This document shows positions 15,067-36,246 of a stretch of 36,246 bases of DNA, in pieces. A program made the position numbers and the translations under genes. Within the stretch, counting starts at the first letter, position 1. Each line of letters opens with the position of its first letter. The notes under the pieces were generated by a model. The model made no database searches, was not told the origin of the DNA, and worked only from the letters and a program-made list of their open reading frames with translations. Source of the stretch: Bacteroidales bacterium (GTDB taxonomy: Bacteria; Bacteroidota; Bacteroidia; Bacteroidales; F082); contig JAKSMW010000021.1 of the NCBI GenBank assembly GCA_024400395.1, positions 1 through 36,246 on the forward strand, given 5' to 3'.

Positions 15067-15074
15067 TACCTTTG
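15067..15074 (+). promoter_or_regulatory. -7 element for the aminotransferase gene
   Basis: A perfect TACCTTTG (15067-15074); the region about 20 bases upstream is only T-rich. Transcription would start near 15080, leaving a leader of about 75 bases before the ATG at 15156 and excluding the in-frame TTG at 15072 as start. Confidence 0.6.
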
Positions 15075-15101
15075 CAAGTCAAAACAATTTCAGGTCTTCG
15101 A

Positions 15102-15120
15102 GACAATCAGATTGATTGTC
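15102..15120 (+). other. Perfect hairpin in the aminotransferase leader
   Basis: GACAATCA (15102-15109) pairs fully with TGATTGTC (15113-15120) around a 3-base loop. It lies between the promoter and the start codon and is followed directly by AAGGAG. No T-run follows, so it is not a simple terminator; it may be an RNA-stability or regulatory element. Confidence 0.6.
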
Positions 15121-15155
15121 AAGGAGTTATTATTAACAATAAAAAATATTGCGAT

Positions 15156-16364
15156 ATGGAAACAATCTTATTATCACAGAGAGTCGTTAATATGGCGGAG
15201 TCAGCCACGTTGAAAATGACCGAAAAAAGCCGTGAGCTCAAGGCTCAAGGCATTGACATTATCTCGTTAAGCATTGGCGAACCTGACTTCAACACGCCGG
15301 AGAGCGCGAAACAGGGCGGCATTGCGGCCATAAACAACAACGACACCCATTATCCGCCGGTTCCGGGAACGGCTGCATTACGCAAGGCAATTGCTGAAAA
15401 GCTGAGACGTGACAACGGCCTCGACTATGCCGACACCAACATCATCGTTTCCAACGGCGCGAAGCAGGCGATAACCAACACTTTCCTCGCAATCCTCGAC
15501 AAGGGTGACGAAGTGATTATCCCGGCTCCGTTCTGGGTCTCCTATCCCGAAATGGTGAAACTCGCCGACGGAACTCCTGTCTTCATCAAGACGACAGCCG
15601 AGCAGCATTTCAAAATCAATGCTAAACAGCTTGAAGAGGCGATCACGCCAAACACCAAGGCATTCATTTTCAGCACACCGTGCAACCCAAGCGGTTCTGT
15701 TTACACAAAAGAAGAACTCGCAGCCCTCGTCGAGGTGTTCAAAAAACATCCGAGAGTCATCATCATCTCCGACGAGATTTACGAGTTCATCCAATACGAG
15801 CACAAGCATGAGTCGATGGGCCAATTCACAGAGTTGAAAGACCGTCTCGTGATAGTGAACGGCGTGGCGAAAGGCTATGCTATGACAGGCTGGAGAATCG
15901 GTTACATCGCGGCGCCGAAGGCAATCGTCAGCGCGTGCAACAAGATTCAGGGACAATACACTTCCGGAATATGCACCATAGCGCAAGCCGCCGCGTTGGA
16001 GGCGATGAAACTCAGCCCGGAGAACTCCGAAGAAGTGAACAACATGATCAAGGCGTTCAGACACCGCCGCGACATGTTCTACGAACTGCTGACGGCCATC
16101 CCAGGCATCAAGCTGAACATGCCGGCCGGAGCGTTCTACATGTTCCCGGAGGTCACATATTACTATGGAAAGAGCGACGGTGAGAATGTCATCAAGAACA
16201 GCGACGACCTTTGCATGTATCTGCTTTACAATGCGCATGTGGCATGTGTGGCTGGAGGTCCTTTCGGCAACGACGACTGCATCAGACTTTCGTATGCGAC
16301 ATCGGAGGACAAGCTCATTGAAGCCGCGAGACGCATCAAAGAAGCACTTGAGAAATTAAAATAA
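15156..16364 (+). CDS. Class I aminotransferase (aspartate aminotransferase-like)
   Basis: A 402-residue PLP-dependent fold type I aminotransferase, subgroup 1b. Signatures are S-L-S-I-G-E-P-D-F-N-T-P near residue 40, Y-P-P-V-P-G near 72, N-G-A-K-Q-A-I near 105, the C-N-P-S-G substrate-binding motif near 183 and S-D-E-I-Y-E near 207. The PLP lysine is K239 in V-A-K-G-Y-A-M-T-G-W-R-I-G-Y, with phosphate-binding arginine in the same motif. The arginine that holds the substrate carboxylate is in C-I-R-L-S-Y-A near the end. Aspartate/2-oxoglutarate transamination is the most likely reaction; prephenate or other amino acids are possible. The ATG at 15156 was chosen because the promoter overlaps the upstream TTG. 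Only one base separates it from the heptose kinase gene. Confidence 0.9.
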   Translation: METILLSQRVVNMAESATLKMTEKSRELKAQGIDIISLSIGEPDFNTPESAKQGGIAAINNNDTHYPPVPGTAALRKAIAEKLRRDNGLDYADTNIIVSNGAKQAITNTFLAILDKGDEVIIPAPFWVSYPEMVKLADGTPVFIKTTAEQHFKINAKQLEEAITPNTKAFIFSTPCNPSGSVYTKEELAALVEVFKKHPRVIIISDEIYEFIQYEHKHESMGQFTELKDRLVIVNGVAKGYAMTGWRIGYIAAPKAIVSACNKIQGQYTSGICTIAQAAALEAMKLSPENSEEVNNMIKAFRHRRDMFYELLTAIPGIKLNMPAGAFYMFPEVTYYYGKSDGENVIKNSDDLCMYLLYNAHVACVAGGPFGNDDCIRLSYATSEDKLIEAARRIKEALEKLK

Positions 16365-18341: not shown

Positions 18342-18415
18342 GGTCTCTTCGTCTAGTCTGGTTAGGACGTCAGGTTTTCATCCTGGTAACTCGGGTTCAA
18401 ATCCCGGAGAGACTA
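18342..18415 (+). tRNA. tRNA-Glu (UUC), copy 1
   Basis: The cloverleaf can be folded by hand. The acceptor stem GGTCTCT pairs with AGAGACT (one G-U), with discriminator A. The anticodon stem TCAGG/CCTGG closes the loop TTTTCAT, giving anticodon TTC. The T loop is TTCAAAT. The 3' CCA is not encoded. Confidence 0.95.
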
Positions 18416-18445
18416 CAAGTGAGGTGGAAGTGGATAGATGTAAGG

Positions 18446-18519
18446 GGTCTCTTCGTCTAGTCTGGTTAGGACGTCAGGTTTTCATCCTGGTAACTCGGGT
18501 TCAAATCCCGGAGAGACTA
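18446..18519 (+). tRNA. tRNA-Glu (UUC), copy 2
   Basis: Identical over all 74 bases to copy 1 and separated from it by 30 bases; anticodon TTC. The pair probably forms one precursor transcript from the promoter at 18300-18326. Confidence 0.95.
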
Positions 18520-18607
18520 CAAAATATAACGAATATTGAATTCAGAAGACAGAAGTTTTAGCTTAAGGCGATGACGTTTGTTTTCTGTTTTTGTATGTAA
18601 ACATTTG

Positions 18608-25542: not shown

Positions 25543-25797
25543 ATGGCAAATCACAAATCGTCGTTGAAGAGAATCCGTCAGACAGAAGAAAGACGTTTAC
25601 ACAACCGCTTCTATGCCAGAGCAATGCGCGCAGCAGTCAGAAGCTTCAGGGAATTAACAAGCAAAGCTGATGCAGAGGCAAAGCTTTCGGAAATGTACAA
25701 GGTCATCGACCGCACAGCAAGACGTGGCATCATCCACCGCAACAAGGCTGCTAACTTAAAGTCAAAGCTCGCACGTTTCACAGCAAAATTGGCATAA
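25543..25797 (+). CDS. rpsT: 30S ribosomal protein S20
   Basis: A protein of 84 residues, basic and helical, matching S20 over its full length: M-A-N-H-K-S-S-L-K-R-I-R-Q at the start, N-R-F-Y-A-R near 21, and the C-terminal D-R-T-A-R-R-G-I-I-H-R-N-K-A-A-N-L-K-S-K-L. It binds 16S rRNA at the body of the small subunit. Monocistronic, with its own promoter and a strong terminator. Confidence 0.97.
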   Translation: MANHKSSLKRIRQTEERRLHNRFYARAMRAAVRSFRELTSKADAEAKLSEMYKVIDRTARRGIIHRNKAANLKSKLARFTAKLA

Positions 25798-25830
25798 GTC
25801 GGAAATCGATTCTATATCAGGGAATAAAAG

Positions 25831-25858
25831 TCCTCTTCGGAAACGGGGAGGATTTTTT
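25831..25858 (+). terminator. Rho-independent terminator of rpsT
   Basis: TCCTCTTC (25831-25838) pairs with GGGGAGGA (25845-25852) through two G-U pairs, loop GGAAAC, followed by six Ts (25853-25858). Confidence 0.88.
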
Positions 25859-25928
25859 GTTTTTCTGCCATCACACGCTGTTTCCGTTCAAAGCGAAAAG
25901 TTTCGGCATTCCCAGTATCTGACACAAT

Positions 25929-27443
25929 ATGTATATTTTTTTTACAATTGTCACTATTTTTGTTGGACATGTGATTTTATTGACTATTTTTGCGGGTTAT
26001 AATGTAAAATGCGTCTTAACATGTACAAGATAAAACACGTGATATTTCTCTTCGCGGTCCTGGCGGCCTCTCTGCTGTCGCACGCGCAATCCACGGACCT
26101 GCCGGACTTCACCGACCTCGACGACCCAGCCGTCACCTGCTACTGGGGGGAATTCCTGAACCCGAAGCAGCACAAGGAAAGGGACGAGTACCTGCACCAG
26201 GTCATCACTGAGCAGGGGCACGACTACTGGATTGACGAGCTGCCGCTCCTCCCACCGGGGGAGGACAGGGTCGTGAAACTCGGAGACTTCGACGAGACCG
26301 GCTTCAACTACAACCGCGACGCCGAGGCCATCTCCTACCAGTTCACCGTTGACCCGAACCGCTCGATACTCCTGCTCAAGTTCGCCGTGGTGCTGCAAGA
26401 CCCGGGGGACACCGAACACGACTCCCTCCAGAGGCCGAGGTTCAAGGTCAGGGTCACTGACCTCGACGACGTACTCGTCGACGACTGCGCCGTCTATGAC
26501 GTCACCGCCTACGGACACGTGCCGGGGTTCATACCGGGCGACAACAAAATCATCTGGAGGCCTTGGACAAGCGTAGGCATCGACCTGACACCATACTCCG
26601 GAAGGGAGATCAGGGTCGAGTTCACCACCTACGACTGCGCGCTGGGCGAACACTTCGGGTACGCCTACTACACCGCGCAGTGCATCTCCAACAAGTTCCA
26701 GGTCGAGAACTGCACCAACCCCATCACCCTCAAGGCACCGGACTTCTTCGAGTCGTACCTCTGGAACACCGGCAGCACGGAACAGTCGGAGACCTTCCTC
26801 GTGCCAGAAAACACACCTGTCGATGTGTCCTGCCTCGTCACATCCGTCACCGGATGCCAGTTCACGCTCTACGGAAGGCTCGCCTACGACGACGGCATGC
26901 CTACCGAGGACACCGAAATATACGACACCGCCTGCATCAGGTCCTGGTACAACGACAACTACTTCAACTTCATGACCGGGGACACGCCGGGGGACATGCC
27001 GCCCGTCATCAACACCATCGTCAACCTCAGCAGCGGCTGCTCAACCGTCAACATCACGCTGCACCTGCACCTCATCGACAGGGTGCCCGACAACCACATC
27101 TTCATGGACATCTGCGACGGGGAAGAATTCCACGACCTCAACTTCGACATCACAAGCGACATGCTCTCCCCTGGCGAAAACGTCTTCTCCCACGACGACC
27201 TCTCCCCTTCCGGATGCGACAGCACCACCGTGCTCCACCTCTTCGTCAACAACTCATACAACCTCCTCTTCAGCGAGCAGGCCTGCTCCGGGGACAGCTA
27301 CAGCGGGCACGGGTTCCTCATCGAAAACACAAAAACGGGGGTCCTCGACTCCACACTGAACCTCAGCACCTCCGCAGGATGCGACTCCATCGTGACACTG
27401 CACCTCCTCGTCAACCCCTCGCACAACATAGTACTGTACGACA
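25929..27443 (+). repeat. 5' cassette of giant gene 1, duplicated at 32046-33560
   Basis: Comparing the two stretches at an offset of 6117 bases I see no difference from 25929 to 27399 (1471 bases) and two substitutions up to 27443, after which similarity stops. The cassette holds the promoter, signal peptide, N-terminal module and the first two repeats plus the start of the third. Confidence 0.93.
25962..25992 (+). promoter_or_regulatory. Promoter of giant gene 1
   Basis: GTTG (25962-25965), a 19-base spacer and TATTTTTG (25985-25992). The start codon follows 17 bases later, so the leader is very short. The same sequence precedes giant gene 2. Confidence 0.6.
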
Positions 27444-30400
27444 CAATAGGATTCGGCATCCCGTACGACAAGTACGACTTCTATCAAGAAAATCCACCAA
27501 TCGGTTGGAACACATATAGTAAAGAACTCAAGACAAAGAGCGACTGCGACAGCATTGTAACCCTGCATCTCCTCGTCGGTGAAGTTTTCGAGAACATTTT
27601 CACAGACACGATCTGCTTCGGCCAAGATTATGACAATGACGACTTCCATTTCACGAAACCATCCGTCGGAATACATATAGACTCAGTAGTCTATGAAACA
27701 GTTTTGGGTTGTGACAGCGTGATTAAGATCAGACTTTGCGTCAATCCGGTTTATGACATCGGACTGTTTGACACCCTCTGTGAGGGCGAAAGTTACCACG
27801 AGCACGGTTTCAACATCGAAAATCCAGTCTTGGGATCGAACTACGACACCCTGAGATACGAAAGTTCTTTAGGTTGCGACAGCATTGTACACATCGAGGT
27901 TTTCGTAAGACCAGTTTTCGACATAACAATCGATGACACGATTTGCTATGGGTCAGACTATCATGATTTCAACTTTGACACAATAAGGCCTGAAACCGGC
28001 TTATGTATCATGCAGCAGAACATCAAGTCACAATACAACTGCGACAGCATCATAACTCTGAATCTTCAAGTCCTTGATTCATATTCAATCGAGATCACAG
28101 ACACAATCTGCTACGGCGAGAATTATCAAGCATACAATTTCAACATTGAAAATCACCCTGTTGGAATTGACACGTTCATACAGAACCTGACGACAATCTA
28201 TGGTTGCGACAGCATTGTCAGACTCAATTTAATTGTAGCGCCGGTTGACACCACGGCGTTTTACGACACCATCTGCGAAGGTGAAAGTTACCACGAAAAC
28301 GGATTCCACTTTGTCGGCCCGATCCATGGCTCGCACACTTTGCAACAGGACAGTGTCATCAGCTCATTCGGATGCGACAGCTTGTTGATACTGCACCTGA
28401 AGGTTCATCCCAAATACGACATTTTAATAACGGATACAGCCTGCTCGGATGAAACATACGACAGATACGGATTCCAAATAGCCGACCTTAAGCCAGGCAT
28501 AACGTTTGATTCACTGTCACTTGAATCAATGTACGGATGTGACAGTACCGTCAGACTTGAATTACATGTTTCAACTTCATACTTTGAAACAATAACCGAT
28601 ACGATTTGCTTTGGTCAGGATTATTACGAGAACAATTTTGAATTTGGCAACTTAGAGCCGGGATGGCATTACGACACCATAGTTTACATTTCCACAATGA
28701 ATTGCGACAGTGTCGTTGACCTCAGTCTTTACGTCGCACCAGTTTTCGACACGATGTTTTCTGACACAATTTGCTTCGGCGAGTCTTATTCCGGACATGG
28801 ATTCACCATTGAAAATCCTGGAAACGGGTGGAATTTTGACACGCTGAACCTCGAGACCGTCTTGGGATGCGACAGCGTTGTAAGGCTGGAGCTTTACGTG
28901 GCGCAAGTATTTGACACAGTCTTATCAGACACAATCTGTTTCGGCAATTCTTATTCCGGACATGGATTCATCATCGAAAATCCAGGGAAAGGATGGAACT
29001 TCGACACATTGCGACTTGAGACCGCAATCGGATGCGACAGCGTTGTAAGGATGGAGCTCTACGTGGCGGAAGTATTTGACACTGTTTTTTCTGACACGAT
29101 TTGTTTTGGCGAAACATATCATCTTCACGGATTTGACAAAGACAGCCTGGAGGTCGGTTGGACTTTTGACACATTGAGACTCCATACTGTTTTGAATTGC
29201 GACAGCATTGTAAGCCTGCAGCTTCTTGTAGTACCGGTTTACGATTATGACATCTACGACACAGCATGTCTTGGCGAGCAATATCACGAATACGGTTTTA
29301 ACATCGACAGTCTTGTCTTCGGTTGGAACCACGACACTTTGAGACTTGAGACTGTCTTCGGATGCGACAGCACTGTAAGACTCAATCTTTATGTTGACTC
29401 ACTTCGTCTTAAGGAAATTTACGACACTATCTGTTTCGGTGAAGACTACCACAACCACAATTTCCATTTCCTCGACCCGCAGGCGGGAAATCACACATTG
29501 AGAAATGAAGATTTGGGCGCATACGGATGCGACAGCATAACGTTACTACATCTGGCTGTTGGCGAAATTTTCGGCATTAATATTTTTGACACAATCTGTT
29601 ATGGCGAGCCTTACAACAACTATGGTTTCCTTCTCGACAGCCTTGAGGCAGGATTATGGCACGACACATTACACCTCAAAACAATTTTAGACTGCGACAG
29701 CACGATCTTGCTGAATCTTCATGTCGCACCAGTTTTCGACACTGCATTCTACGACACCATCTGTTTTGGCGAAAGCTATCACGAACACGGATTTGTCAAA
29801 GACAGCCTCGCCACCGGATGGAACCTTGACACTTTGAGATTAGAAACCGCGTTCGGATGCGACAGCGTCGTACGGCTCGAGCTCCTCGTCATGCCGACAC
29901 AAGAGACAAATCTATTCGACACAATTTGTTCAGGTGAGAGCTATTACTATAACAATTTCACATTCGATTCCCCAGATGCTGGATGGAATCTTGACACTTT
30001 GAGGTTCGAGACGACATTCGGATGCGACAGCATTGTCATAATGCACCTGCTTGTCGGAGCGACGTACGACACCATCTTCAACGACACCGTCTGCGTCAAC
30101 GAAGGTTATCATTCACACGGCTTTTCCATTGACACGCTGCTCCCTGGATGGAATTTCTCGTCCCAAGCATTGTCATCAGTACTTGGATGCGACAGCCTCG
30201 TACACATCAACATCTTCGCGGCACTTGTATTCGACACGACCATCCAAGACACTATTTGCTTTGGTAACACGTACTCAAACCACGGTTTTGTCATTGACAG
30301 TCCGGCTTCAGGGCTGAACATTGAAATGCTTGAACTAGAATCCATTACAGGATGTGACAGCACCATCCACTTGGAGTTGTTCGTCGCAGACGTATTTGAC

Positions 30401-31906
30401 ACCATAATCTTCGACACGACGTGTTTTGGAGAGCCATATTCAGGACACGGATTCTACCTTGACAGCCTTGATGTCGGATGGAACTTCGACACTTTGAACC
30501 TCGAGACAATTCTCGGCTGCGACAGCACCGTTGTGCTGAACCTGCTCGTTGGCGCGATGTCAGACACGACTTTGACCGACACGATATGCTACGGAGAGCC
30601 GTACTACGAAAACGGATTCCACATTGACAGTCTCCAGACCGGTTTGAATTTTGACACGCTGAACATTGAGACAATCCTGGGGTGCGACAGCATTGTCATG
30701 CTCGAGCTGTATGTGGCACCAGTGTTCGAGACTGTCGTCTTCGACACCGCATGCTATGGAGAGGCTTATTCCGGAAATGGTTTCCACATAGAGAATCCAG
30801 AAACAGGCTGGAATTATGATACAATCAGATTAGAGACCGTCCTTGGTTGCGACAGCATCAAACGGCTTGAGCTTTTCATTGCCGATGTCTTCGACACGGT
30901 AATCTTTGACACGACATGCTTCGGGCAGCCATACAACAACCACGGATTCCAGTTAGACAGCATTGTCCCGGGCTTCAATTTTGACACACTTAGATTTGAG
31001 ACAGTCCTTGGTTGCGACAGCATCATCAAGTTAGAACTGTTCGTAAATGAATCTTTCGACATTACATTGTCGGACACCATCTGTATTGGGGAGAGCTATC
31101 ACGGCAACGGATTCAATTTCGTTGACCCGAATGTCGGAACACATGAGCAGACCTTGACTTTGTCGTCAAATGACGGTTGTGACAGCACCGTCACATTCAG
31201 GCTCAATGTCGCGCCGGACTACTTTTTCGAGGTCACAGATACTGTCTGCGAAGGAGAATACGTCACGTTATACGGTCTTGACACATCAGACCTTGTGCCT
31301 GGGGTTCACCGTCTGACATCAAATCTTCTGACCCAACACGGCTGTGACAGCATCTTCGACATCACGCTCAAAGTCGAGTACAGTTTCAAGACCCCGAACG
31401 AGATTTACGGCTTGACCGACATATTCGTTTCAACGAACATGCTCACGGGAGGTTACAATTATTACATTGACACGATTCCAGGTTGCGATGAATATCTGTG
31501 GACCATAGATAACGAGACGTGGATCATACGGCCCAATGGCAACAGTTGCAGACTGCTCGCCATCACACATGGGACCGGGACACTTACGGTCTCGTCGGGG
31601 AACATCTGCGGAGATGTGGAGAAGTCAATCTACCTCACAGCCGAATTCTTCGGTGTGACGGAAAACGAAGGCGCCAATGTCAACGTGTATCCGAATCCGA
31701 CAAATGGCGATGTACGCGTGGAAGCCAATGTCATCGAAAAGGTCAATGTTTACAGTCCTTCTGGAGTGATGTTGCTTTCATTCGACGGCATCGGCGAGAA
31801 TTCCATTTACGTTGACATCAGCGGACTGTCCCCGTCAGTGTACATTTTCGAGATTTTCTCCGCTGACGGAATATTCCTGAAAAAGGTGACCAAGACCAGC
31901 CACTAA
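26009..31906 (+). CDS. Giant T9SS-secreted repeat protein 1
   Basis: A 1965-residue secreted protein. The signal peptide ends at about residue 26 (L-L-S-H-A before Q-S); ATG 26009 or the fifth codon may be the start. An N-terminal module (about 28-359) includes A-E-A-I-S-Y-Q-F-T-V, D-P-G-D, R-P-R-F-K-V-R-V, W-R-P-W-T-S-V-G-I-D-L-T-P-Y and Y-D-C-A-L-G-E-H-F-G-Y-A-Y. This module is familiar from other Bacteroidales surface proteins and is probably a beta-sandwich. Residues 360-1792 are 26 tandem repeats. Residues 1793-1889 form a PKD-like unit with W-T-I-D-N-E and four cysteines. From about 1890 (V-Y-P-N-P-T-N-G-D to the final V-T-K-T-S-H) comes a type A T9SS sorting domain. A cell-surface adhesin or stalk is the likely role; no catalytic motif is seen. 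Confidence 0.88.
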   Translation: MRLNMYKIKHVIFLFAVLAASLLSHAQSTDLPDFTDLDDPAVTCYWGEFLNPKQHKERDEYLHQVITEQGHDYWIDELPLLPPGEDRVVKLGDFDETGFNYNRDAEAISYQFTVDPNRSILLLKFAVVLQDPGDTEHDSLQRPRFKVRVTDLDDVLVDDCAVYDVTAYGHVPGFIPGDNKIIWRPWTSVGIDLTPYSGREIRVEFTTYDCALGEHFGYAYYTAQCISNKFQVENCTNPITLKAPDFFESYLWNTGSTEQSETFLVPENTPVDVSCLVTSVTGCQFTLYGRLAYDDGMPTEDTEIYDTACIRSWYNDNYFNFMTGDTPGDMPPVINTIVNLSSGCSTVNITLHLHLIDRVPDNHIFMDICDGEEFHDLNFDITSDMLSPGENVFSHDDLSPSGCDSTTVLHLFVNNSYNLLFSEQACSGDSYSGHGFLIENTKTGVLDSTLNLSTSAGCDSIVTLHLLVNPSHNIVLYDTIGFGIPYDKYDFYQENPPIGWNTYSKELKTKSDCDSIVTLHLLVGEVFENIFTDTICFGQDYDNDDFHFTKPSVGIHIDSVVYETVLGCDSVIKIRLCVNPVYDIGLFDTLCEGESYHEHGFNIENPVLGSNYDTLRYESSLGCDSIVHIEVFVRPVFDITIDDTICYGSDYHDFNFDTIRPETGLCIMQQNIKSQYNCDSIITLNLQVLDSYSIEITDTICYGENYQAYNFNIENHPVGIDTFIQNLTTIYGCDSIVRLNLIVAPVDTTAFYDTICEGESYHENGFHFVGPIHGSHTLQQDSVISSFGCDSLLILHLKVHPKYDILITDTACSDETYDRYGFQIADLKPGITFDSLSLESMYGCDSTVRLELHVSTSYFETITDTICFGQDYYENNFEFGNLEPGWHYDTIVYISTMNCDSVVDLSLYVAPVFDTMFSDTICFGESYSGHGFTIENPGNGWNFDTLNLETVLGCDSVVRLELYVAQVFDTVLSDTICFGNSYSGHGFIIENPGKGWNFDTLRLETAIGCDSVVRMELYVAEVFDTVFSDTICFGETYHLHGFDKDSLEVGWTFDTLRLHTVLNCDSIVSLQLLVVPVYDYDIYDTACLGEQYHEYGFNIDSLVFGWNHDTLRLETVFGCDSTVRLNLYVDSLRLKEIYDTICFGEDYHNHNFHFLDPQAGNHTLRNEDLGAYGCDSITLLHLAVGEIFGINIFDTICYGEPYNNYGFLLDSLEAGLWHDTLHLKTILDCDSTILLNLHVAPVFDTAFYDTICFGESYHEHGFVKDSLATGWNLDTLRLETAFGCDSVVRLELLVMPTQETNLFDTICSGESYYYNNFTFDSPDAGWNLDTLRFETTFGCDSIVIMHLLVGATYDTIFNDTVCVNEGYHSHGFSIDTLLPGWNFSSQALSSVLGCDSLVHINIFAALVFDTTIQDTICFGNTYSNHGFVIDSPASGLNIEMLELESITGCDSTIHLELFVADVFDTIIFDTTCFGEPYSGHGFYLDSLDVGWNFDTLNLETILGCDSTVVLNLLVGAMSDTTLTDTICYGEPYYENGFHIDSLQTGLNFDTLNIETILGCDSIVMLELYVAPVFETVVFDTACYGEAYSGNGFHIENPETGWNYDTIRLETVLGCDSIKRLELFIADVFDTVIFDTTCFGQPYNNHGFQLDSIVPGFNFDTLRFETVLGCDSIIKLELFVNESFDITLSDTICIGESYHGNGFNFVDPNVGTHEQTLTLSSNDGCDSTVTFRLNVAPDYFFEVTDTVCEGEYVTLYGLDTSDLVPGVHRLTSNLLTQHGCDSIFDITLKVEYSFKTPNEIYGLTDIFVSTNMLTGGYNYYIDTIPGCDEYLWTIDNETWIIRPNGNSCRLLAITHGTGTLTVSSGNICGDVEKSIYLTAEFFGVTENEGANVNVYPNPTNGDVRVEANVIEKVNVYSPSGVMLLSFDGIGENSIYVDISGLSPSVYIFEIFSADGIFLKKVTKTSH
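27086..31384 (+). repeat. 26 tandem 165-base (55-residue) repeats in giant gene 1
   Basis: The array divides exactly into 26 units of 55 residues, except unit 1 (57) and unit 8 (56); total 1433 residues. The consensus is Y/F-D-T, three residues, D-T-I-C-F-G-E-x-Y, two residues, x-G-F, about 10 variable residues with a central G, D-T-L-x-L-E-T, two residues, G-C-D-S-x-V-x-L-x-L-x-V. Cysteines at unit positions 10 and about 42 could form one disulphide per unit. Units 11-14 and 20-24 are the most alike. Confidence 0.95.
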
Positions 31907-31934
31907 AAGGCGGCTTATAAAAAACACGAGAATG

Positions 31935-31970
31935 GGGTGTATCAAAAATCTTACGGTTTAGGATACACCC
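31935..31970 (+). terminator. Hairpin after giant gene 1
   Basis: GGGTGTATC (31935-31943) pairs over 9 bases with GATACACCC (31962-31970); loop 18 bases. TAAAATGTTT follows. It is the only structured element between the two giant genes. Confidence 0.6.
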
Positions 31971-32045
31971 TAAAATGTTTCGACTGTTAAAATTCTTTTT
32001 ACTGTCCTGAATTCGGGTCTTCCCTCTCATATTCTCCGACACAAA

Positions 32046-33560
32046 ATGTATATTTTTTTTACAATTGTCACTATTTTTGTTGGACATGTGATTTTATTGA
32101 CTATTTTTGCGGGTTATAATGTAAAATGCGTCTTAACATGTACAAGATAAAACACGTGATATTTCTCTTCGCGGTCCTGGCGGCCTCTCTGCTGTCGCAC
32201 GCGCAATCCACGGACCTGCCGGACTTCACCGACCTCGACGACCCAGCCGTCACCTGCTACTGGGGGGAATTCCTGAACCCGAAGCAGCACAAGGAAAGGG
32301 ACGAGTACCTGCACCAGGTCATCACTGAGCAGGGGCACGACTACTGGATTGACGAGCTGCCGCTCCTCCCACCGGGGGAGGACAGGGTCGTGAAACTCGG
32401 AGACTTCGACGAGACCGGCTTCAACTACAACCGCGACGCCGAGGCCATCTCCTACCAGTTCACCGTTGACCCGAACCGCTCGATACTCCTGCTCAAGTTC
32501 GCCGTGGTGCTGCAAGACCCGGGGGACACCGAACACGACTCCCTCCAGAGGCCGAGGTTCAAGGTCAGGGTCACTGACCTCGACGACGTACTCGTCGACG
32601 ACTGCGCCGTCTATGACGTCACCGCCTACGGACACGTGCCGGGGTTCATACCGGGCGACAACAAAATCATCTGGAGGCCTTGGACAAGCGTAGGCATCGA
32701 CCTGACACCATACTCCGGAAGGGAGATCAGGGTCGAGTTCACCACCTACGACTGCGCGCTGGGCGAACACTTCGGGTACGCCTACTACACCGCGCAGTGC
32801 ATCTCCAACAAGTTCCAGGTCGAGAACTGCACCAACCCCATCACCCTCAAGGCACCGGACTTCTTCGAGTCGTACCTCTGGAACACCGGCAGCACGGAAC
32901 AGTCGGAGACCTTCCTCGTGCCAGAAAACACACCTGTCGATGTGTCCTGCCTCGTCACATCCGTCACCGGATGCCAGTTCACGCTCTACGGAAGGCTCGC
33001 CTACGACGACGGCATGCCTACCGAGGACACCGAAATATACGACACCGCCTGCATCAGGTCCTGGTACAACGACAACTACTTCAACTTCATGACCGGGGAC
33101 ACGCCGGGGGACATGCCGCCCGTCATCAACACCATCGTCAACCTCAGCAGCGGCTGCTCAACCGTCAACATCACGCTGCACCTGCACCTCATCGACAGGG
33201 TGCCCGACAACCACATCTTCATGGACATCTGCGACGGGGAAGAATTCCACGACCTCAACTTCGACATCACAAGCGACATGCTCTCCCCTGGCGAAAACGT
33301 CTTCTCCCACGACGACCTCTCCCCTTCCGGATGCGACAGCACCACCGTGCTCCACCTCTTCGTCAACAACTCATACAACCTCCTCTTCAGCGAGCAGGCC
33401 TGCTCCGGGGACAGCTACAGCGGGCACGGGTTCCTCATCGAAAACACAAAAACGGGGGTCCTCGACTCCACACTGAACCTCAGCACCTCCGCAGGATGCG
33501 ACTCCATCGTGACACTCCACCTCCTCGTCAACCCGTCGCACAACATAGTACTGTACGACA
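32046..33560 (+). repeat. 5' cassette of giant gene 2, copy of 25929-27443
   Basis: Second copy of the shared promoter and 5' coding cassette, offset 6117 bases. The flanks differ on both sides: upstream, the sequence becomes unlike within a few bases of the GACACAA at 32038; downstream, the arrays diverge after 33560. Confidence 0.93.
32079..32109 (+). promoter_or_regulatory. Promoter of giant gene 2
   Basis: GTTG (32079-32082), a 19-base spacer and TATTTTTG (32102-32109), identical to the promoter of giant gene 1. Confidence 0.6.
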
Positions 33561-36246
33561 ACATCTGCATCGGAAACACCTACGACAAAAACGGATTCCA
33601 TATTGACAACGCCGAAGCAGGTCTCAACACATACACACAAACTTACACAACAGATTCAGGATGTGACAGCATAAGGACGCTTAACCTTTTCGTCAACGAT
33701 ACAATAAACATCGTCATCAACGACACGATCTGCCATGGCGAAAATTATGACAAATACAACTTCAACATCATCGATCCGGCTGTCGGAACAACACAACAGG
33801 AACAGCAACTCATCTCAAGCAGCGGATGCGACAGCGTGGTCAAACTGAATCTGTTTGTAGCGCCCACATACAGAACCGACATCTATGACACCGTCTGCGA
33901 AGGCGGCAGTTACCACCAAAACGGCGTGCAATGGGACAGCCTTGAAGCCGGGACACGATACGACACCATCGTGATGGAATCAATTTTCGGTTGCGACAGC
34001 CTGATATTCATCAAGTTGACAGTCACGCCAAAATATACCGAAATCATATTCGATACAATCTGTAATGGTTCAGAATACCACAATTACGGTTTCGACACAA
34101 TACCGGAAAGTCCTGGTGACATAACAATCCAGAAGGATTTGATCTCCTCCTTCGGTTGTGACAGCATAGTCATACTAAACCTTTATGTATCACCCGCATA
34201 CAACAATGAAATATACGACGAGATATGTTACGGCGACAGCTATCACAAATACAACTTTGACACCATCAGCCCTGGTTTAGGCACAATCGTGATGAGGCAA
34301 GAACTTCTGTCATCCGATGGCTGCGACAGTATCGTTGTGCTGAACCTGTCAGTAAAAGAAGTCCTTCACAACTACCTTAAAGACACGATCTGTGAAGGCG
34401 AGGATTATCATGGTTATGGTTTCCATTTTTACAATCCCGGGATCGGCATCCATCATGATTCCGTCACTCTGACATCAGTTGTCGGCTGCGACAGTATTGT
34501 CACACTTGAACTGCTCGTCGCACAAATTCACGACGTCACCATCCACGACACACTTTGCTTCGGCGAAGACTATCACAAATATGATTTCCATTTCATCGGT
34601 CCAATTGCAGGAGACCACAACCTGCAGCATGACATTTTAAGTGGTGCCGGTTGCGACAGTACAGTAAGACTTTTTCTGCATGTGGACCCGTCGTACCTCA
34701 TAGATCATTATGACACAGTCTGCTCCGGAGAAGAATACCACAATCTCGGATTTGATTTGACAGACCTCCATGCAGGCTGGAACAGTGATTCCCTGTTTTT
34801 CTCATTGTCAAGCGGATGCGACAGCATTTCTGTCATAAACATTTTTGTGGCCGAAAAATACGACACACTTTTCTTTGACACCATCTGCCAAGGTGAAACA
34901 TATTCGAACCATGGATTTTATTTAGACAGCCTTGAACACGGCTGGAACTATGACACCTTGAAACTTGAATCCATTTTTGGATGTGACAGTATCGTAAGAC
35001 TGCAACTCAATGTTTTTCAATCAGATAAAACATTGATTTCCGACACGATATGTTTCGGCGAAAATTACACTGAATACAACTTCAACCTGATGAATCCAGC
35101 CGTTGGCACACACAATCAACGTCAGGATCTCGTCAACATCATCGGGTGCGACAGCGTTGTCGAGCTCACACTTTCGGTCATGCCATTGTTCGACACACTG
35201 CTTTTTGACACAATATGCTTCGGGGATGATTACGACAAATACGGTTTTATCTTCAGCGGTCTTGAGACAGGCGAACATACAGACACGCTCGAACTCAAGA
35301 GCATATTCGGCTGCGACAGTATCGTCGTGATTGATCTCATGGTAAACGAGACGCCTTACACAAACATCATCGACACGATTTGCTTCGGCGAAATTTACAC
35401 CGAGAACGGTTTCACCATCGACAGCCTTGAAGCAGGTCTGCATCTTGACACATTGAGACTCAATACAATACTCGGCTGCGACAGTATTGTGTGCCTTGAA
35501 CTCACTGTAGCACCAAAAGATATTGTCGAAATATATGACACGACATGCACCGGCTTCGACTATCACGAGAACAACTTCCACTATCTCAACCCGCAAGTCG
35601 GTCATCACACACTGTTGAACGAAGATCCGAGTTCATTTGGATGTGACAGCACCACAATACTGCATCTGCAAGTTTATTCAGCGTATGAACTCAACTTCTT
35701 CGACACGATATGCTTCGGCGAAGACTACGACAGCCTCGGATTCAGCTTCGAAAGCCCGGAAGTCGGATGGCATTTCGACACTTTGAACCTGCTTTCAGTC
35801 TTCGGATGCGACAGCATTGTCACGATGAGCCTGATCATCGGTGACGTGTCGGACATCAACATCACCGACACCATCTGCCACGGAGACGCTTACGACGCTC
35901 CAGGCTTCCTCCTCGACAGCCTTGACGTCGGATGGCACTTCGACACCTTGAACCTTCTCTCCGCACTCGGATGCGACAGCACCGTGACGCTCGAACTCTA
36001 CGTGGCCCCGACTTACAGCTTCGCCTTCGCCGACACACTCTGCTTCGGCGAGGAATACCACATGAACGGCTTCGACCTCGACAGCCTCAACGTCGGATGG
36101 AACTTCGACACCTTGAACCTCGAAACAACCTTGGGATGCGACAGCATATCCACGCTGGCTCTTTACGTCGCACCTATATATAATATAGCGCTCTTCGACA
36201 CGATATGCTTCGGCGAAGACTACGACAGCCTCGGATTCAGCTTCGA
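32126..36246 (+). CDS. Giant repeat protein 2, N-terminal part (runs off the window)
   Basis: The frame is open from ATG 32126 to the right edge: 1373 codons and two bases. Signal peptide, N-terminal module (residues about 28-359) and repeats 1-2 are the same as in giant protein 1. From repeat 3 onward the sequence is different in detail but the same in plan, with the D-T-I-C and G-C-D-S motifs in every complete unit. The C-terminus is not visible; by analogy with protein 1 a T9SS sorting domain is expected. Co-transcription with gene 1 is unlikely, because a hairpin and a complete promoter copy lie between them. It is probably an alternative surface adhesin. Confidence 0.87.
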   Translation, partial: MRLNMYKIKHVIFLFAVLAASLLSHAQSTDLPDFTDLDDPAVTCYWGEFLNPKQHKERDEYLHQVITEQGHDYWIDELPLLPPGEDRVVKLGDFDETGFNYNRDAEAISYQFTVDPNRSILLLKFAVVLQDPGDTEHDSLQRPRFKVRVTDLDDVLVDDCAVYDVTAYGHVPGFIPGDNKIIWRPWTSVGIDLTPYSGREIRVEFTTYDCALGEHFGYAYYTAQCISNKFQVENCTNPITLKAPDFFESYLWNTGSTEQSETFLVPENTPVDVSCLVTSVTGCQFTLYGRLAYDDGMPTEDTEIYDTACIRSWYNDNYFNFMTGDTPGDMPPVINTIVNLSSGCSTVNITLHLHLIDRVPDNHIFMDICDGEEFHDLNFDITSDMLSPGENVFSHDDLSPSGCDSTTVLHLFVNNSYNLLFSEQACSGDSYSGHGFLIENTKTGVLDSTLNLSTSAGCDSIVTLHLLVNPSHNIVLYDNICIGNTYDKNGFHIDNAEAGLNTYTQTYTTDSGCDSIRTLNLFVNDTINIVINDTICHGENYDKYNFNIIDPAVGTTQQEQQLISSSGCDSVVKLNLFVAPTYRTDIYDTVCEGGSYHQNGVQWDSLEAGTRYDTIVMESIFGCDSLIFIKLTVTPKYTEIIFDTICNGSEYHNYGFDTIPESPGDITIQKDLISSFGCDSIVILNLYVSPAYNNEIYDEICYGDSYHKYNFDTISPGLGTIVMRQELLSSDGCDSIVVLNLSVKEVLHNYLKDTICEGEDYHGYGFHFYNPGIGIHHDSVTLTSVVGCDSIVTLELLVAQIHDVTIHDTLCFGEDYHKYDFHFIGPIAGDHNLQHDILSGAGCDSTVRLFLHVDPSYLIDHYDTVCSGEEYHNLGFDLTDLHAGWNSDSLFFSLSSGCDSISVINIFVAEKYDTLFFDTICQGETYSNHGFYLDSLEHGWNYDTLKLESIFGCDSIVRLQLNVFQSDKTLISDTICFGENYTEYNFNLMNPAVGTHNQRQDLVNIIGCDSVVELTLSVMPLFDTLLFDTICFGDDYDKYGFIFSGLETGEHTDTLELKSIFGCDSIVVIDLMVNETPYTNIIDTICFGEIYTENGFTIDSLEAGLHLDTLRLNTILGCDSIVCLELTVAPKDIVEIYDTTCTGFDYHENNFHYLNPQVGHHTLLNEDPSSFGCDSTTILHLQVYSAYELNFFDTICFGEDYDSLGFSFESPEVGWHFDTLNLLSVFGCDSIVTMSLIIGDVSDINITDTICHGDAYDAPGFLLDSLDVGWHFDTLNLLSALGCDSTVTLELYVAPTYSFAFADTLCFGEEYHMNGFDLDSLNVGWNFDTLNLETTLGCDSISTLALYVAPIYNIALFDTICFGEDYDSLGFSF
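33203..36246 (+). repeat. At least 18 tandem 55-residue repeats in giant gene 2
   Basis: Unit 1 has 57 residues, units 2-18 have 55 each and unit 19 is cut after 22 residues by the window edge; the sum fits the open frame exactly. Units 16 and 19 share the same opening (F-D-T-I-C-F-G-E-D-Y-D-S-L-G-F-S-F), with near-identical DNA at 35699-35751 and 36195-36246. This points to recent copying within the array. Confidence 0.93.

Follow-up and report, generated by a model that had tools for sequence, protein, structure and literature searches.

In the sap homologues of Campylobacter fetus the 5' region is conserved and is the site of recombination, with a single promoter moved by inversion, and systems of the vlsE and pilE type combine one expressed copy with silent partial copies. 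Within the Bacteroidales, the products of kgp, rgpA and hagA of Porphyromonas gingivalis are cargo of the type IX secretion system (T9SS). The adhesin domains of these three genes form identical repeats, both inside a gene and from one gene to another; rearrangement of domains and exchange of alleles have been proposed for them, and short-read assembly fails at the repeats (PMC5266723). The C. fetus sap S-layer locus holds tandem surface-protein homologues (PMC3887049), Periscope proteins have an N-terminal head on an array of folded, highly similar repeats (PMC8201768), and vlsE/vls of Borrelia is a case of cassette-wise recombination in surface proteins (PMC11499132). The present analysis concerns a stretch of 36,246 nucleotides (the window), contig JAKSMW010000021.1 of the Bacteroidales assembly GCA_024400395.1 (GTDB family F082), in which two adjacent genes, A and B, begin with one and the same 5' segment, here called the cassette, and continue into unlike repeat arrays. 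Among the titles and abstract openings listed for open-licence literature on gene conversion, antigenic variation and mosaic repeats in T9SS or Bacteroidales surface proteins, none describes this arrangement. The features on which the argument depends are the following.

26009 to 31906, forward strand: gene A, 1965 residues, with a hydrophobic N terminus, a head, 26 repeats of 55 residues, a PKD-like stretch and a T9SS type A sorting tail
32126 to 36246, forward strand: gene B, at least 1373 residues with 18 repeat anchors, running off the contig
25929 to 27399, forward strand: cassette copy 1, an exact repeat with the promoter region and the first 464 codons of gene A
32046 to 33516, forward strand: cassette copy 2, an exact repeat upstream of and reaching into gene B
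27400 to 27443, forward strand: cassette edge, 44 bp that differ from copy 2 at two synonymous sites
25963 to 25992, forward strand: promoter-like motif TTG-N19-TANNTTTG of Bacteroidetes type (pattern match)
32080 to 32109, forward strand: promoter-like motif of copy 2 (pattern match)
26087 to 27040 (approximate borders), forward strand: head domain of gene A, a predicted beta-sandwich (AlphaFold2, mean predicted local distance difference test (pLDDT) 88)
27444 to 31390, forward strand: array of gene A, units 3–26, with ordinary codon usage
31685 to 31894, forward strand: T9SS type A C-terminal sorting domain of gene A (TIGR04183, E 4.4e-07, residues 1893–1962; PF18962)

By direct base comparison, 25929–27399 and 32046–33516 agree at 1471 of 1471 bases with an offset of 6117, and the pair is the sole exact direct repeat longer than 77 bp in a scan of the window that was confined to the direct orientation; the bin, at 83% completeness, yielded no third copy. 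The cassette starts 80 bp 5' of the ATG and ends at codon 464, and it comprises those 80 bp with the promoter-like motif and codons for a putative signal peptide, the head domain and repeats 1 and 2. On the left, the mismatch at 25928 is followed outward by 7 further agreeing bases, and on the right the 44 bp of the edge differ by CTG/CTC at 27400 and CCC/CCG at 27418, with the copies diverging fully from 27444 onward. Under an even spread, the chance that both mismatches fall in the last 44 of 1515 bp, with all earlier bases agreeing, would be 0.0008. The earlier note on this DNA had reported the unchanged recurrence and had assigned to it a promoter, a signal peptide, an N-terminal module and the first two repeats; both statements agree with the mapped parts, and the alignment of 25929–27443 with 32046–33560 by which it proposed to check them yields only the two synonymous differences. 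Genes A and B each have an open frame and a promoter-like motif of their own. The motif follows the Bacteroidetes consensus, with the spacing (N19) picked after inspection of the window sequence. It occurs three times in the window, compared with an expectation of 0.41 from shuffles, of which 2 in 100 attain three; two of the occurrences are in the cassette copies and one is inside gene A.

Genes A and B are best read as adjacent surface-protein genes for type IX secretion, with the sorting tail shown on A and cut off on B. The tail of A scores 29.8 bits against TIGR04183 (cut-off 23) and 27.5 against PF18962 (cut-off 27), which would place A, by its C terminus, among the T9SS type A sorted surface proteins. 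The N terminus of both genes is hydrophobic, with a helix at residues 8–23 in the structure model. The 26 repeats of A are spaced at 55 residues (one at 56), a model of three repeats is all-beta (mean pLDDT 90, predicted template-modelling score 0.57), and the PKD-like match scores below its cut-off. Gene B is truncated within its array at the contig end, 36246.

The arrays behind the cassette are a different matter. From unit 4 onward, mean DNA identity is 0.523 between A and B, 0.535 within A and 0.522 within B; best-neighbour DNA identity is 0.51–0.73, except for the A11/A12 pair at 0.82, a unit and its best neighbour are 35–82% identical in protein, and the two arrays have no exact stretch in common that reaches 40 bp. 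Because the arrays, about 52% identical, are no more alike than units within one array, a recent duplication of the whole gene is ruled out. The clear difference between arrays claimed in the earlier note is borne out by these values, and its choice between a very recent duplication and continuing conversion of the 5' end holds if confined to the cassette and fails for the whole gene. An identical 5' part and a diverged 3' part in the same paralogues, a feature of concerted evolution, is present in the assembled sequence. There is also a weak hint, from same-register similarity of the arrays, that A and B may be old full-length duplicates: from unit 3 the mean score of 126.8 exceeds the 107.6 obtained with shuffles (p 0.0004 before adjustment; with the best offset selected, p 0.03 and 0.026; p 0.024 with local shuffles). 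The test is called weak because comparisons with other genes also gave low values (p 0.014, 0.09, 0.046 and 0.36 in four comparisons).

Compared by description (PMC5266723), A and B are like kgp, rgpA and hagA in being Bacteroidales surface proteins with identical repeats between genes; the P. gingivalis genes repeat a downstream adhesin region, whereas A and B repeat the 5' end with promoter motif and head, upstream of unlike arrays. The tandem arrangement is that of the sap locus (PMC3887049), but unlike in sap switching the cassettes are direct repeats that point in the same direction and each carry a promoter-like motif. A head on an array of repeats is shared with Periscope proteins, whose repeats are highly similar (PMC8201768), whereas the units of A and B remain at the protein and DNA identities given above. 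The likeness to vlsE/vls lies in cassette-wise recombination (PMC11499132); unlike the vlsE/pilE type, both copies here have a promoter motif and a start, and no silent cassettes were found in the 83% complete bin. By the features compared, the arrangement resembles both P. gingivalis exchange and sap recombination and is a member of neither.

The border between cassette and array is also visible in codon usage. The GC content at third codon positions (GC3) falls from 0.86 to 0.55 at codon 491 of gene A (step statistic 12.2) and from 0.86 to 0.58 at codon 487 of gene B (11.4), with permutation maxima of 3.9 and 4.4; a statistic above 8 occurs in 2 of 199 background open reading frames (ORFs), which were taken from 400 kb of the 2.12 Mb genome. 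The cassette GC3 of 0.866 is the highest when set against these ORFs (maximum 0.84; windows of 464 codons at most 0.849). AGG supplies 11 of 14 arginines, GGG 13 of 28 glycines and TCC 16 of 33 serines, shares that exceed those of all 177, 195 and 196 background ORFs, respectively, with at least 10 such residues, and the GC3-matched chi-square per degree of freedom is 5.4 in the cassette versus at most 3.3 in 36 native ORFs. By most of the tests made, the codon usage of the cassette looks alien to the genome and that of the arrays looks ordinary. A second case occurs in G046, where the low GC3 of the head gives way to 0.8 as repeat unit 2 ends, no more than about 35 codons from the matching place in the window genes. 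This gene is 91% identical over 3.7 kb to that of G088, so the two represent one lineage, and G088, with 26 codons left after the switch, gives a modest statistic (4.5 versus 3.9). As a source of high GC3, GC-biased conversion found no support (unit GC3 versus best identity, rho 0.28, p 0.09). The last three units of array B (35690–36244) have a GC3 of 0.75–0.80, unlike the rest of the array, and are without the preference of the cassette (GGG 0 of 15).

The genomic position of the two genes allows a comparison with relatives. The left border is a ribosomal protein gene, and by synteny the locus would lie between rpsT and radC.

25543 to 25797, forward strand: rpsT (ribosomal protein S20), left border of the locus (Pfam PF01649)

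The two border genes lie within 200 bp of each other in 73 of 83 congeneric pairs, a pair being rpsT and radC on one contig (G074 twice), with genomes having split contigs or missing either gene omitted. In the search for a continuation of gene B, radC was not found in the bin with a query that matches 87 of 99 genus genomes, and wecB was not found there with a query that has no comparable control. Five genomes have an S20 at least 95% identical. Two of these (G006 and G086) carry the empty form of the locus, two have 4.1 kb (G025) and 9.2 kb (G070) between rpsT and radC, and in G154 a gene for a giant FG-GAP repeat protein follows rpsT and runs off the contig end (L370:4348-8538). The gene in G025 has an IgGFc_binding head (PF17517) on a chassis of the same type with few repeats, and its last 190 residues are 48% identical to those of gene A. 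Three tandem array genes occupy the locus in G070, with tails 38–44% identical to A's, one with Ig/PKD-type matches and two with repeats that begin shortly after the N terminus, and in G027 and G040 array genes lie just beyond radC. In a tree of 18 selected tails, A groups with the rpsT–radC tails and those of G027 and G040 (support 86/90, below the 95/80 mark), a branch with 100/100 support separates the tails of the head-relatives G030, G014 and G020 from it, and G026 is not part of the 86/90 group. As judged from sequence, the heads at this locus vary among close relatives while the tails are related.

In G025, a small gene without a Pfam match and an outer-membrane beta-barrel gene come after the array gene (L323:4115-5646, L060:11104-11970, L317); in G070, too, the array genes are followed by a relative of the beta-barrel gene (56% identical), and both of the G025 genes have relatives in G040 by look. 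The two are perhaps partners that travel with the adhesin.

With moderate confidence, we favour the explanation that a promoter-plus-head cassette was acquired in front of a resident stalk-and-anchor chassis and copied between neighbours. Each chassis would consist of a stalk of 55-residue repeats and a C-terminal anchor (seen on A); the cassette was probably gained by a recombination that replaced or added a head, with its breakpoint around repeat units 2/3, and would then have been copied to the neighbouring gene by unequal crossover or gene conversion, leaving one head on two unlike stalks. Acquisition by transfer, the direction of copying, gene conversion as the mechanism, glycan binding and expression are what we infer. 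If the explanation is true, large surface proteins of uncultured Bacteroidales evolve by swapping whole promoter-plus-head units in front of old stalks, and the exchange could be recognised by codon usage that changes within one frame and by head and tail trees that disagree, so that large numbers of metagenome genomes could serve to test it. A wider version, in which Bacteroidales adhesin genes hold a standing head-exchange system, seems doubtful at present: promoter, signal peptide, head and two repeats would recombine as a single cassette, preferably broken at repeat 2/3, that moves between species and spreads among neighbouring chassis at hot spots like rpsT–radC. A cell would then display a single head on several stalks, or exchange heads while keeping its stalks.

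Several results weigh against the acquired cassette. Within the background, stretches of 250 codons reach a GC3 of 0.88 and native genes 0.84, and expression-linked codon choice is possible; by likelihood z the cassette ranks 14 of 24 and is not flagged, and against the whole-genome pool its value of 8.1 lies inside the background range (99% quantile 8.8). The control gene at 15072–16361 also tops its permutation maximum (5.6 versus 4.1), so the step statistic is unspecific. A strong step near the array start occurs in 3 of 19 array ORFs (both window genes and G046), with two others strong elsewhere; the step falls inside the head in G020 and G037, and none exceeds permutation in G026, G030 and G014. 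Among the 79 loci of head-relatives, 44 were inspected for ORFs and 33 aligned with the window, and a step above 8 was found in 1 of the 44 head-relatives of other metagenome-assembled genomes (MAGs), namely L184. At the locus, the rpsT–radC tails alone do not form one clade (2 changes) and are only 38–48% identical to A's, and kinship was gauged from S20 identity alone, so that a replaced head is something we infer. Donor DNA was sought in the 98 other genus genomes, with three candidates scored per genome, and no match to the cassette exceeded 60 bp; searches of plasmids (DNA and protein) and phages (protein) also gave no donor.

The control-gene step and the count of 1 in 44 make the composition argument weaker as a general rule, and the rule that a composition step marks the border of head and array was dropped on the counts of 3 in 19 and 1 in 44. 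An origin of the cassette from a mobile element or phage was likewise rejected, there being no plasmid match in DNA or protein and no phage protein match. In L184 (4034–5083) the DNA is 85–94% identical to that of relatives up to codon ~622, with no DNA similarity beyond; GC3 falls from 0.81 to 0.26 at codon 625, and the C-terminal protein is 46–53% identical to relatives. A DNA source for the 3' part was not found. The gene is a possible case of 3' exchange and is not used as support.

How exactly the two copies agree depends on the assembly. Among 80 contig tips (40 of 61 contigs) there are three joins of exactly 55 bp and none longer, namely C3/C21, C12/C37 and the end of this contig with 35697.

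36192 to 36246, forward strand: last 55 bases of the contig, repeated at 35697; a k=55 assembly join in array B

Exact 55-bp joins point to a short-read de Bruijn graph with k=55. This is the default k of metaSPAdes. Shorter tip overlaps of 25–48 bp are also present, several of them being a tip that matches its own tandem repeat. The G000 tips of C12, C28, C32, C6, C7 and C37 (L074, L090, L094, L108, L109, L139) are short tandem repeats of the type AACACGAGTTGCACGAGTTTTTTT, a family spread over the genome.

An assembly effect, in which both genes are real and their 5' parts differ by some per cent and were merged to one consensus printed twice, is unlikely as a full account but must be taken seriously. 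It is favoured by the exact 55-bp joins, which include the end of this contig, by the clustering of mismatches in the last 44 bp, and by the position of all remaining mismatches (25928; 27400 and 27418) at most 55 bp from full divergence, where bubbles cannot close. In simulations all bubbles fell within 265 bp in 99% of runs at 1% divergence, 80% at 2% and 37% at 3%, and a cassette divergence of about 1–3% could be collapsed unseen, depending on the permitted bubble length, a further point against the acquired and copied cassette as we describe it. A lone difference within the cassette would give a closed bubble, which may be collapsed. Short read pairs cannot span 1471 bp, but the resulting loop is walked most simply in the order rpsT, cassette, A, cassette, B, by which both copies can be printed. 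The effect limits exactness only, since real reads must underlie each of the two left and two right junctions and thereby a close likeness in two places; a conversion tract ending at 27399 accounts equally for the mismatch pattern, and the assembler name is inferred from k. The copies are at least nearly identical, and their perfect identity is unproven. The earlier note held that the identity is seen; this is right for the assembly consensus, with the caveat that an assembler can render copies identical. More generally, finding identical repeats in a metagenome assembled at k=55 does not prove gene conversion.

A simple recent segmental duplication, in which promoter, head and two repeats were copied once by unequal crossover in front of an old array gene and without continuing conversion, is one of the two copying routes within the preferred explanation, and we hold it tentatively, at somewhat under even chances. 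The zero differences and the tandem direct orientation fit a single recent event; the two synonymous differences in the last 44 bp do not, nor does the weak same-register similarity of the arrays, which looks as if old full-length duplicates had their 5' ends made alike later. That the cassette is native and owes its extreme C- and G-ending codons to strong expression of the gene start is improbable. Phosphoglycerate kinase (identified by eye) and other native genes do reach a GC3 of 0.83, and the likelihood z is ordinary, but native high-GC3 genes favour CGC, GGC and TCG/AGC rather than AGG, GGG and TCC, and expression poorly explains a step within one reading frame. Least probable is a locus of antigenic variation, as the earlier note had suggested, where the direct repeats would recombine during growth and so bring different arrays behind one promoter. 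Direct repeats of 1.47 kb could recombine, with rpsT–cassette–array B as the deletion product, and the arrays differ; against this, both genes have a promoter motif and an open frame, no further copies were found in the 83% complete bin, and the arrays lack a common exact stretch of 40 bp or more. The varied heads before related tails at one locus are the mirror image of the array swap suggested there. Array switching within a population thus finds no support here, while the sequence comparisons support head replacement between species.

The predicted fold of the head gives a hint at its function. The AlphaFold2 model, built with 34 sequences, has weak Foldseek neighbours among glycosidase domains, the carbohydrate-binding modules (CBM) CBM27, CBM11 and CBM61, MAM and Eph ligand-binding domains (best E 4.5e-05; CBM27 E 1.0e-04; template-modelling scores at most 0.56), and carbohydrate binding is perhaps its role, as a guess from the modelled fold. 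None of 10 heads of the family has a Pfam match at E 0.1, and the head-family profile has no PDB sequence match at E 1. Counting this genome, the head occurs in 9 of 173 genomes of the taxonomic family at E 1e-20, all of them in this genus, and in 15 of 393 in a sample of the order at E 1e-30. Closer heads, with identities of up to 50%, are found in rumen and other Bacteroidales MAGs (best 80 of 499), and the nearest within the genus (G026, 36–40%) belongs to a gene at another locus, near a recQ-like gene. In viral contigs no head relative was confirmed with a single-sequence query. In three congeners (L052, L055 and L056) a gene with a related head or array adjoins a recQ-like helicase gene (named by eye), which forms a second locus for the family.

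Two minor features of the window complete the description. Downstream of rpsT there is a hairpin.

25826 to 25857, forward strand: terminator-like hairpin 3' of rpsT (pattern match only)

Terminator-like sites number 4 in the region versus 5.1 in shuffles, and downstream of rpsT in G025, G154 and G070 a hairpin of like sequence can be recognised by eye. Elsewhere in the window, exact 77-bp tandem copies at 18342–18418 and 18446–18522 look by eye like identical tRNA genes, which would be ordinary.

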